A stretch of DNA of 46,746 nt, taken from the NCBI GenBank assembly GCA_009692045.1, contig SIAA01000014.1, positions 1-46,746 of the forward strand, written 5' to 3'. The stretch comes from Phycisphaerales bacterium. Its GTDB lineage: Bacteria; Planctomycetota; Phycisphaerae; Phycisphaerales; SM1A02. Below, piece by piece: positions 32,817 to 35,973 of the stretch. A model generated the notes under the pieces. That model had not been told where the DNA came from and ran no database searches. It worked only from the letters and a program-made list of their open reading frames with translations. Both the position numbers and the translations under genes were made by a program. Position 1 is the first letter of the stretch. Each line of letters begins with the position of its first letter.

Positions 32817-33968
32817 TCACTCCAGCCAATCCTTCGCCTTCAATCGCTCGGGAACATAAACCTCCGTGACATAGGAAATGTTCTTGGTGATGAGCGACTC
32901 GACCTCCATCTTGAAACCGTTGCGCAGCATGCGCTGGATCTCTTTTTGCCAGGGCTTGTTGCCCAAGAACCAGGGATACTCGGCGATTTGCTTGGCGCGC
33001 TCGGTGTCGCGATCGTTCAACTCAATCTTGACATCGTCCTTCAATCCGCATCGCTCATAGTCGGCGGCGCGAATGCCGAGAAACTTGGCATCGGGAATGG
33101 CCAGCCGACTCGACTCGAAGGCCAGATTGATCGAGCCCTGCTTGATGACACTAAAGATGTAGTGCCCCCAGGGATCGCAATCAAGAAGACAGTAAACGGG
33201 TAGACCCAACTCGCGATTCAATCGCGAGAGCAGGCGGCGCACCCCGCGCGGAGGTTGACCGGAGCCCTCGGTGAGGATGCAGTTGTGTTTCTCCCAGAAG
33301 CGATCCTCGTTGAACCGACTCCACACGGTGTCTTTTTCAACATGGAGCACGAACTTGGCCTCGCACTTGCCAAACTCCAGCACGCCGGGCTCGCAGATGG
33401 AGGGAATGGCGTAGCCGCCCGTCCCCATGCGACGGCAGTCGATCTCGTCACCGTTGTCCCGCACCGTGATGTTGCCCACCATCGTGCCGCGTTTCTTGGC
33501 AAAGAGGTGCAGGTTCTCCCTAAGAGTTTCCATAGCGACCTCGATGTCCTCCAGGATCCCATCGGACTCGTCCTGCCCTGCAAAGGTCTTCTCCTTCGTT
33601 CCCGGAATACTGTGCAGGCTCATGTAGTACATGCCACGCAGGCTCAGGGTCTTTCTTGCTTCAATCAGGTCCTTGCATCCCTTGGACAGCAAGAGAGTCT
33701 GCATGAACTTCTTGGCCTGAGCCGTATTGAATAGGTTGCGGCGCAGCTTTGACTGCCCCATCTCCAACAGGCGCTTGCGCTCGTTGTAAGTGGTGTTGGA
33801 GAGCGTTCGTTGCGGCACATCTACGAATGGATCGATCTCCGCGAGAGACTGCTTCACAACGCGTGCGCCCATGCCGCAGATGCTCTCGAGCGTTTTCTTG
33901 TCGGTCGCCACGCTCACTGCCGCTCGCCGTGGCGCGCCAACTGAGATTGATTCCTTCTTCTTTGTCAT
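32817..33968 (-). CDS. top6A: DNA topoisomerase VI subunit A (Spo11-like)
   Basis: A 383-residue type IIB topoisomerase subunit that cuts both DNA strands through a tyrosine. RGMYYMSLHSI carries the probable nucleophile, Y115 (aligned with RDIFY of Spo11). The Toprim metal-binding residues are E211 in LHVEKDTVW, and D263 and D265 in LLDCDPWGHYI. The length matches archaeal Top6A. The N-terminus is basic and probably disordered. A GGAG lies 6 bases ahead of the ATG, 30 bases after subunit B. Top6A is typical of archaea and plants; bacterial copies are rare. Confidence 0.93.
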   Translation of the reverse strand: MTKKKESISVGAPRRAAVSVATDKKTLESICGMGARVVKQSLAEIDPFVDVPQRTLSNTTYNERKRLLEMGQSKLRRNLFNTAQAKKFMQTLLLSKGCKDLIEARKTLSLRGMYYMSLHSIPGTKEKTFAGQDESDGILEDIEVAMETLRENLHLFAKKRGTMVGNITVRDNGDEIDCRRMGTGGYAIPSICEPGVLEFGKCEAKFVLHVEKDTVWSRFNEDRFWEKHNCILTEGSGQPPRGVRRLLSRLNRELGLPVYCLLDCDPWGHYIFSVIKQGSINLAFESSRLAIPDAKFLGIRAADYERCGLKDDVKIELNDRDTERAKQIAEYPWFLGNKPWQKEIQRMLRNGFKMEVESLITKNISYVTEVYVPERLKAKDWLE

Positions 33969-33998
33969 TACTTCTCCGTGGCTCTTGCAGCCCCGACA

Positions 33999-35882
33999 TC
34001 ACATGCCGAACAGGTTGCCATCTGAGGGTTTCGCTTTAGGTTTCACTTTGGGTTTCACTTTGCCGATGAGTGCGGGCGCCGATCTGGGCGCAGCCGGCTT
34101 TGCCCCCGACAGTGGCTCATGGATCGCTAGCGCCTCATGCAGCGGCAAGGTGGGCTCAACCTCTTGCCGCGCTGCGATGCGATTCTCCACGATTACTACC
34201 GACTCGTCGCTCTCTAGGTGAGACTCCAACACCTGCCCCTCATCATCGAGAGACTGGTCGGCTTCCTCCGTCTTGGTTTTCGCCAGTCGCATCAGAGCGT
34301 CGTACACAGACTGAGCTGGTGTGCCCGTGATGGCCTCGCAGGCTCGCGCGGTCTCGCCGATGTATCGCTCAAATATCCCGCGCCGCTCCGTCTCGTGTTT
34401 CATGCGCTGGCGGCGCTTTATGTAAGCGCCCAGTTTGCGTCCCGCCTCCTGTAGCGCCAGCCGCATCTCCTTGCGAATCTCGTCATAGTCGGCGACCGCC
34501 TCCTTGGACTCGCTCGTGAATGGCACCCAAGCACTGGCCATGTGAATCATGATTACTAGTGGCCCCTCGGGCAAGGCATCTCGACCCTGACTCAAACCAT
34601 ATGGTCGCCAGTTGGTTTCCACAATCGACTTGAAGGAACAGCAGGCTGACTGCTGGTAGAGGAGCGGCACTCGATTGGCAAAGCGAATGACCCGCGCGCT
34701 CTCATCCTTGGGAAGTTCGCCACCGAAGGCGATACCCACTTCAATCTGAAATGGATTGCCCCGGTAGACATCGGCCGGCCGTGTTGCCGCCGAGAAGAAC
34801 TCGGCCTTCACGCCCTTGAGCAACCCGGAGAGCAGCGCCTTGGTGCCGATCGGCACCAGACAATCGGTGCTAGGCGCCATTATGCGCACCTCTTGAATCG
34901 CTTTGTAAACAGCCTCGGCCTCCTTGTGGCCGACTTGTTTGATCCAAGTGCGATTCGTCACGCCCGCGCGTTCACACAACTCGCGCGCAACCGAGGGCGA
35001 GACGCGACAGAACTCCTCCTGCAGGAAGGAGCCGAGCTGTGTCCTCTCTGTTCGCTCCATCATTTGGATCAGAGTGCCCAGTTCGATGCCCTTGGGGTGC
35101 GGCTTGATCTCCTTGGCTTCGGGCGGCAACTCCTCAACACCGCGCGGGAACTCCATGCGCTCATTCTCGGGAGTCACATAGGTGAACGAGGCATGGGGAT
35201 TGGCAATCGCCGTCTGCTCCAAGTACTCATCGACCGACTGCCGACCCTTCTGATGGCGACCCTCCAACTCGATGGTCACCTGCGTTCCGTGTCCATCGGG
35301 AAAGAGCGAGTCGTCTTCGGGATGCTCGGTCTCACTCACGATGTCGGCGCGGTTCTTTGATGTGTCCATCTTGAGCACCACTTCATGAGAGGGGTGCTTC
35401 TTGCCAATCTTGGAGACAATGAGCAGTGGTTGACCGGTGGTCATCAAGCCATACATTCCGGCAGCGCTGATACCGATCCCCTGCTGCCCGCGGCTCATCT
35501 TCAATCGATGAAACTTGCTGCCGTAGAGAAGGCGCCCGAATACATGCTCGATCTGCTTGCGCACAATTCCTGGACCGTTGTCGCGAACCGTCACTTTGAA
35601 TCGCGTCTCGCCCAGCTGAGAAATCTCAACATGAATCGAGGGAAGGATGCCCGCCTCTTCGCACGCATCGAGCGAGTTGTCGACTGCTTCTTTCACTGTG
35701 GTGAGAAGCGCCTTGCGGGGATTATCAAACCCCAACAAGTGTCGATTCTTGGCGAAGAACTCGCTCACGGCGATGTCTCGCTGGCGATCCCCCATCTCTT
35801 CTGCGGTCGCGCGCCGCACTTTCGCTGACTTGGGCTTTGTCTCGGTCACGGCAACTCCATTAGCCGACTCTAGCGTTGTCAT
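33999..35882 (-). CDS. top6B: DNA topoisomerase VI subunit B
   Basis: A 627-residue ATPase subunit that drives strand passage with Top6A. The GHKL ATP site is complete: KEAVDNSLDACE at 64-75, DNGPGI at 101-106 and GQQGIGISAA at 132-141. The transducer domain follows (about 230-460). The tail after about 530 is an extension rich in Glu, Ala and Pro, ending in KVKPKVKPKAKP and NLFGM, which is not part of the conserved core. The start ATG at 35882 follows AAGGAGG at a somewhat long distance (13-14 bases). Gene order B then A is the archaeal order. Confidence 0.94.
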   Translation of the reverse strand: MTTLESANGVAVTETKPKSAKVRRATAEEMGDRQRDIAVSEFFAKNRHLLGFDNPRKALLTTVKEAVDNSLDACEEAGILPSIHVEISQLGETRFKVTVRDNGPGIVRKQIEHVFGRLLYGSKFHRLKMSRGQQGIGISAAGMYGLMTTGQPLLIVSKIGKKHPSHEVVLKMDTSKNRADIVSETEHPEDDSLFPDGHGTQVTIELEGRHQKGRQSVDEYLEQTAIANPHASFTYVTPENERMEFPRGVEELPPEAKEIKPHPKGIELGTLIQMMERTERTQLGSFLQEEFCRVSPSVARELCERAGVTNRTWIKQVGHKEAEAVYKAIQEVRIMAPSTDCLVPIGTKALLSGLLKGVKAEFFSAATRPADVYRGNPFQIEVGIAFGGELPKDESARVIRFANRVPLLYQQSACCSFKSIVETNWRPYGLSQGRDALPEGPLVIMIHMASAWVPFTSESKEAVADYDEIRKEMRLALQEAGRKLGAYIKRRQRMKHETERRGIFERYIGETARACEAITGTPAQSVYDALMRLAKTKTEEADQSLDDEGQVLESHLESDESVVIVENRIAARQEVEPTLPLHEALAIHEPLSGAKPAAPRSAPALIGKVKPKVKPKAKPSDGNLFGM

Positions 35883-35973
35883 ACTTCTGACTTCGCCTCC
35901 TTGCGTGTCCGAGTTTTATCAGGGATTGGGATCGAAGCACTGACTAAGGCTGATCTGGTATCTTCCCTGCCCC

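Follow-up and report, generated by a model that had tools for sequence, protein, structure and literature searches.

In archaeal DNA topoisomerase VI (topo VI), ATP closes subunit B on one DNA duplex, and subunit A cuts a second duplex so that the first passes through. The archaeal enzymes from M. mazei (2Q2E, 9O0G) and S. shibatae (2ZBK) have the same two subunits, fold and catalytic residues as the bacterial pair described here. Bacterial topo VI is already in print: the accessible text of Allen and Maxwell (2024; PMC11302465) counts 17 bacterial families with the enzyme, including Sedimentisphaeraceae, Anaerohalosphaeraceae, Pirellulaceae, Thermoguttaceae and Lacipirellulaceae, infers at least two transfers from archaea, and states that further work is needed to establish the role of topo VI in bacteria. 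Its main text, as far as accessible, contains none of the terms phycisphaer, planctomy, sliding, PCNA, disordered, linear motif or exchange, and uses clamp once, for the GHKL clamp. The newest point of the present analysis is the tail of subunit B.

The topoisomerase VI locus

The window, a 46,746-nucleotide stretch of a Phycisphaerales genome, encodes a complete DNA topoisomerase VI on the minus strand at 32817-35882. Subunit B (33999..35882, minus strand; 627 aa) comprises a GHKL ATPase, an H2TH-like region, a transducer and a tail, as found by profile, PDB-sequence and fold searches, while subunit A (32817..33968, minus strand; 383 aa, type AI) has a winged helix with the catalytic Tyr and a Toprim domain. 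The B stop and A start are separated by 30 bp (33969..33998, minus strand), and the two genes are presumably read as one unit with B first. A ribosome-binding-site-like AAGGAGG was seen by eye upstream of the B start (35896..35902, minus strand). Topo VI came first in all three kinds of search for both subunits. B exceeded the cut-offs of NCBIfam topo VI-B models at 675.9 and 520.7 bits and contains the Pfam domains Topo-VIb_trans and HATPase; A exceeded the cut-off of NF003333 at 517.5 bits and contains TP6A_N and TOP6A-Spo11_Toprim. Because NF003333 bears the title 'DNA topoisomerase IV subunit A', automatic annotation of topo VI-A can fake a topo IV.

A sequence-only reading of this DNA had proposed a complete operon, B then A, with catalytic residues kept in both subunits and a base composition like that of the surroundings. 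The ORFs, their spacing and the profile matches bore out the operon. The GC contents of B (58.5%) and A (56.8%) agree with the third claim, lying near that of the whole window (59.9%); GC3 of B (0.704) equals the maximum of 12 other genes compared (0.571-0.704), and that of A (0.758) lies above all 12. Read by eye, the divergent gene upstream of the pair is ndk, and the neighbors (PNPase, a histidine kinase and ndk) give the locus a chromosomal look; topo VIII, a type IIB enzyme, is carried by free or integrated plasmids.

The catalytic residues were also found as proposed. In a 12-row alignment, Y115 of A (codon 33624..33626, minus strand) occupies the column of the invariant Tyr that the chains of S. 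shibatae, M. mazei and M. jannaschii carry, and E211, D263 and D265 are likewise invariant, the last two forming the DxD of the Toprim fold (33174..33182, minus strand). In a 10-row alignment of B, residues E65, N69, D101, G103, G105, R131, G132, G135, G137 and K460 are invariant, and the GHKL N, G1 and G3 boxes and the transducer are present. The catalytic residues of topo VI are among these aligned positions of A and B. Both subunits fall with topo VI and not with an unrelated GHKL/Toprim pair, and the hallmarks of Spo11/topo VIB-like proteins (no H2TH, degenerate GHKL) do not apply to B, whose GHKL residues are intact.

AlphaFold models of B and A had mean pLDDT values of 77.6 and 77.5. Foldseek ranked topo VI A first for the model of A and topo VI B first for that of B, with TMq values of 0.76 and 0.64 for the respective first hits. 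Helices 268-305 of B sit between the GHKL domain and the transducer in the model, an interval that is presumably occupied by the H2TH of topo VI, which is why we call them an H2TH-like region. Helices continue up to residue 557 and are followed by a three-residue strand (562-564), and ten-residue blocks past residue 570 average a pLDDT of only 40-49. M. mazei B has a folded C-terminal domain according to the accessible text of PMC11302465, whereas the model of the window's B shows, past the transducer, helix, the short strand and a low-confidence tail without such a domain. By its sequence the pair is predicted to have topo VI activity as an A2B2 complex, in which ATP-closed B would capture one duplex and A would cut a second via Tyr115 and let the first through.

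Distribution and reciprocity with topoisomerase IV

The sequence-only reading had described bacterial copies of topo VI as sporadic, which the distribution contradicts. In a sample of 294 Planctomycetota genomes of at least 80% completeness, the B transducer was found in 148 and the A Toprim in 145, and within the window's order B was present in 143 of 201 genomes. A control set of 14 named genomes gave topo VI matches in the four listed archaea and nowhere else. The A and B genes are adjacent in 10 of 13 loci fetched from the window's order.

The locus also has several variants. In contrast to the window's order, A occurs without B in the fetched stretches of L098, L109, L111, L113, L114 and other Sedimentisphaerales/Phycisphaerae loci. 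In some planctomycetes, second, divergent A-like Toprim genes lie beside a normal A (G158:C2:2430165-2430680 in L093, G070:C97, G131:C80 and G014:C70) and are possibly mini-A or topo VIII-like. An insertion of ~75 residues inside the B transducer, which splits the PF09239 hits in L053 and other B genes of families f67, f76 and f50, may be the helical bundle that has been described in Pirellula staleyi. Carriage by plasmids or phages was considered and rejected, as a tblastn search with A matched three haloarchaeal plasmids and no phage record. One IMG/VR viral contig (L094:1408-5149) encodes a full AI-type topo VI pair, and is either viral or mis-binned planctomycete DNA.

The window's genome, which is 95% complete, encodes one GyrA-family protein, which has GyrA-box motifs, and one of the GyrB family, and a second member of either family was not found in it; this is the answer to the check for gyrase and topo IV that the earlier reading had suggested. 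To place this genome among its relatives, PF00521 copies were counted against topo VI in the 294 genomes, 7 of which had no copy. Two or more GyrA/ParC-family genes were present in 17/143 genomes with topo VI and in 76/144 others; the counts were 10/97 and 49/80 at completeness of at least 90% and contamination of at most 5% (p 7e-13), and 1/35 and 32/48 at completeness of at least 95%. Scored by family majority, 4/45 families with topo VI and 15/30 without it had an extra copy (6 ties; p 1e-4). Families f59, f24, f30 and f66 account for 13 of the 17 exceptions among topo VI genomes.

The 30 GyrA-family copies of 18 chosen genomes divide into 18 with a GyrA-box and 12 without. Ten of the 12, none of them from a genome that has topo VI, group in one clade (support 99), which we take as ParC. 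The remaining two come from the two inspected genomes among the 17 exceptions: G017 has a divergent protein of 708 aa, and G107 a fragment of 119 aa that was not in the tree. Topo VI and ParC replace one another among relatives in families f35, f67 and f19, and between f4 and other families of the window's order, which by eye are four independent cases. Genome G159 has neither topo VI nor a ParC-type copy, and since 31 of the 80 topo VI-less genomes have a single GyrA-family copy, neither decatenase is obligatory.

This reciprocal distribution makes it likely that topo VI stands in for topo IV. As gyrase was the one further type II enzyme found in the window's genome, topo VI would most likely serve as decatenase and precatenane remover in place of topo IV. 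The accessible text of PMC8837201 reports that M. mazei topo VI favors decatenation and proposes precatenanes as its substrate, and that of PMC11302465 mentions, as unpublished, that the M. mazei enzyme complements an E. coli parE mutant. The latter source also describes topo IV as lacking outside Pseudomonadota and Terrabacteria, and stresses that the link between topo VI and topo IV fails within these two groups. The reciprocity found here extends its report on five planctomycete families.

Two types of subunit A and the origin of the pair

Scored against the window's A, the A subunits of the phylum reach either 387-876 bits (type AI) or 144-187 bits (type AII), without such a gap in the B scores; five A rows at 44-122 bits are paralogous, read out of frame or truncated where the locus ends. 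The nearest PDB chain is S. shibatae for the window's AI-A and M. jannaschii (394.8 bits) for the one AII-A tested, while M. mazei is nearest for B of both AI and AII genomes (one each tested). After the catalytic Tyr, AI has an insertion in common with S. shibatae, and both lack an Asn insertion that is present in AII and M. jannaschii. Type AII occurs in five genomes from other orders of the window's class (families f6-f8), in which B is close kin of the window's.

Archaeal and bacterial relatives were taken as the best 80 of 550 matches to an AII-leaning consensus, a sample that cannot show the absence of AI. These best 80 include one Methanococcales locus, many Woesearchaeota/Nanoarchaeota and several bacterial phyla; all score higher to AII than to AI, and 59 have B in the fetched stretch. 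In the phylum of one Woesearchaeota genome, A was found in 178 of 193 genomes, of which 81 are AI-like, with at least 266 bits against the window's A, and the rest AII-like, with at most 194 bits. B subunits from the 20 fetched loci score 387-612 against the window's B, and the Methanococcales B ~305. Four DPANN topo VI-B ORFs (L159, L165, L198 and L208; 1067-1132 aa) contain insertions of ~500 aa, some with an intein-like end such as the NFIANGVLVH of L208, and these insertions are probable inteins by their sequence.

Trees were quick IQ-TREE runs on hand-chosen rows (98 and 99), with SH-aLRT as the only support, and the AU conflict was assessed on fewer rows (59 B, 61 A) with groups that were partly named after the first trees had been seen. 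L198_dpaAI, with a long branch and an intein-like insert, was left out of later trees, including the A tree with the DPANN clade, and two short A sequences (G079, G137) were left out of an early A tree. In the A tree, AII joins Methanococcales (99) and a single clade of AI and AII is rejected (AU p 0.0014), whereas in the B tree AI joins AII (100) against Methanococcales and the grouping of AII with Methanococcales is rejected (AU p 0.019). This conflict indicates that subunits were exchanged, and the AII enzyme reads as a putative combination of a Methanococcales-type A with a DPANN-type B.

For the window's own type, a single clade (98) unites the 21 planctomycete AI-A, four DPANN rows and the viral contig, and planctomycete AI-B join two DPANN rows (90). 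A single clade of all AI-paired B is not rejected (AU p 0.55), and a common tree for both subunits is rejected. The window's AI pair is probably a native DPANN pairing, and the trees speak with reasonable confidence for a DPANN source, the pair having presumably been acquired from a DPANN-like archaeon. Our first reading, in which AI came from an exchange of A within the phylum Planctomycetota, was set aside because DPANN genomes with AI made a second import likelier. It is rather unlikely that bacteria acquired topo VI once, in an ancestor, and exchanged A later among themselves. An all-bacterial B clade without DPANN rows is not rejected (AU p 0.64), with the constrained tree even scoring higher, and planctomycete AI-B lay inside AII-B in a first, narrower tree; however, both A types occur in the one Woesearchaeota-genome phylum and planctomycete AI-A group with DPANN AI-A, so that two imports are the simpler account.

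The C-terminal tail of subunit B

The C-terminal extension of B past the M. mazei match spans residues 511-627 (34002..34352, minus strand). The sequence-only reading had noted an extra tail as a possible partner- or DNA-binding element, and a partner element does seem likely, but the tail, which counts 117 residues past that match, does not end in Lys/Pro repeats. These occupy residues 607-619 (34026..34064, minus strand), have low confidence in the model and are probably a linker; directly after them B terminates in SDGNLFGM. Within this end, DGNLF (residues 621-625; 34008..34022, minus strand) holds a conserved LF element and is a candidate clamp-binding motif. It keeps L4 and F5 of the QxxLF found in clients of the sliding clamp DnaN, but has D where those clients have Q at position 1, and so lies outside the strict client pattern.

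Among the tails compared in the window's order, the element that is kept is the LF motif and not the Lys/Pro run. LF is present in 14/14 first-set and 66/68 fresh tails, against a mean of 6.7 and a maximum of 16 in 2000 shuffles, and its excess is the largest of all 400 dipeptides. A VVIV/VIIV-like element, which in the window is VVIV at residues 562-565 (34188..34199, minus strand) and coincides with the short strand of the AlphaFold model, recurs in 33/68 order-mates' tails (shuffled mean 1.2). The strict QxxLF-type pattern is rare in the order (3/14 first set, 5/68 fresh), the residue at position 1 before LF being D in 17, G in 14, S in 9, E in 9 and Q in 5 of 66. We consider LF very probably a selected binding motif on these sequence counts.

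The QxxLF idea arose from reading first-set B tails, 16/68 of which carry the strict pattern, and the pattern (Q..[LM]F or Q[LM].[LF].[LFM]) was then fixed before it was tested on the tails of 60 further B genes of the phylum. It occurred in 28/60 fresh tails, the same motif as in DnaN clients (QL[S/D]LF, QxxLF), while shuffles averaged 0.22 with a maximum of 2 in 500 and the mirror pattern gave 0. Tails of order and phylum relatives carry QDSLF, QKELF, QLNLF, QLSLF, QADLF and the like, and motif density in tails is 2.1 and 4.7 per 1000 residues, compared with 0.07-0.09 for B cores, A and GyrA/ParC. In the first set the motif is N-terminal in AII (10/35) and C-terminal in AI (6/27), and never the reverse. 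In the fresh set, where a C tail of at least 40 residues stood proxy for AI, short-C-tail sequences have an N-terminal motif in 20/38 cases and long-C-tail ones a C-terminal motif in 7/16, plus one N-side case (1/15 such sequences).

Outside the phylum, the strict motif was found in 2/22 bacterial and 1/52 DPANN B tails. An archaeal PIP box in the DPANN tails was rejected, the full pattern matching 0/52; in exploratory counts, 24/53 DPANN tails have Q..[LI] (shuffled 11.6, mirror 10), and 26/53 fit a loose pattern that was picked after viewing the tails (shuffled 3.6). A clamp motif general to the ParC clade was likewise rejected at 1/10. The one case is L296, from a genome without topo VI (G012), with QPSLF near the N terminus at residue 22.

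Since related tails carry canonical QxxLF, DnaN is the most likely partner, and we somewhat favor it as the candidate to which the disordered tail would tether topo VI through its terminal LF motif. In their accessible texts, PMC12309361 gives QxxLF as the general bacterial clamp-binding consensus and, for DnaE3 polymerases, xxxLF whose first position varies, PMC4549789 reports that clamp peptides are able to cross between DnaN and PCNA, and PMC4929162 reports topo VI subunits of P. abyssi among the proteins that co-purified with NucS, a partner of PCNA. Topo VI as a clamp client was absent from the titles and abstract openings listed, a scope that leaves preprints and most subscription journals outside.

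The main competitor, less probable but to be taken seriously, is that the enzyme is a bacterial topo VI of the ordinary kind and that its tail motif binds not the clamp but a partner of an SSB-like hook, SMC, the A subunit or a division protein. SSB tails bear a terminal Phe, and 15/68 order tails, with LF as their exact terminus, recall it; D, G, S or E outnumber Q at position 1 by 49 to 5, and the VVIV-like element recurs in the same tails. Yet related tails of order and phylum match the QxxLF consensus of PMC12309361, whose accessible text also reports that DnaE3 polymerases keep xxxLF with a variable first position, and motif copies at the N terminus cannot be a C-terminal hook. That LF is inherited drift without function is highly improbable: relatives do share ancestry, which shuffles ignore, but the last 60 residues are barely alignable (median pairwise identity 0.25 versus 0.23 shuffled, and 0.74 in the adjoining core) and nevertheless contain LF in 65/68 tails, the reversed FL occurs in just 2/68 full tails, and in the first set the strict motif is at one end of B in AI genomes and at the other in AII genomes.

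The clamp consensus, the co-purification with NucS, the crossing of peptides between DnaN and PCNA and the preference for decatenation are, taken together, best read as a decatenase that the clamp would tether behind the fork. For the window, our best explanation as a whole, which we hold by a modest margin over its negation, is a topo VI that replaces topo IV, derives from DPANN and is putatively clamp-tethered by the tail of B. For Planctomycetota, the chances seem evenly balanced that topo VI is a clamp-tethered decatenase that ousted topo IV behind the fork, with a hook, N-terminal in AII and C-terminal in AI, that would have been gained or re-tuned on the move from PCNA-using DPANN to DnaN-using bacteria; the window would then hold a Q-less variant. 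If true, this would give bacterial topo VI a concrete role as a fork-coupled replacement of topo IV. It would also supply a natural case of a heterotetramer that exchanged one subunit between archaeal lineages, and a candidate short peptide-clamp interaction that is amenable to a simple binding assay.
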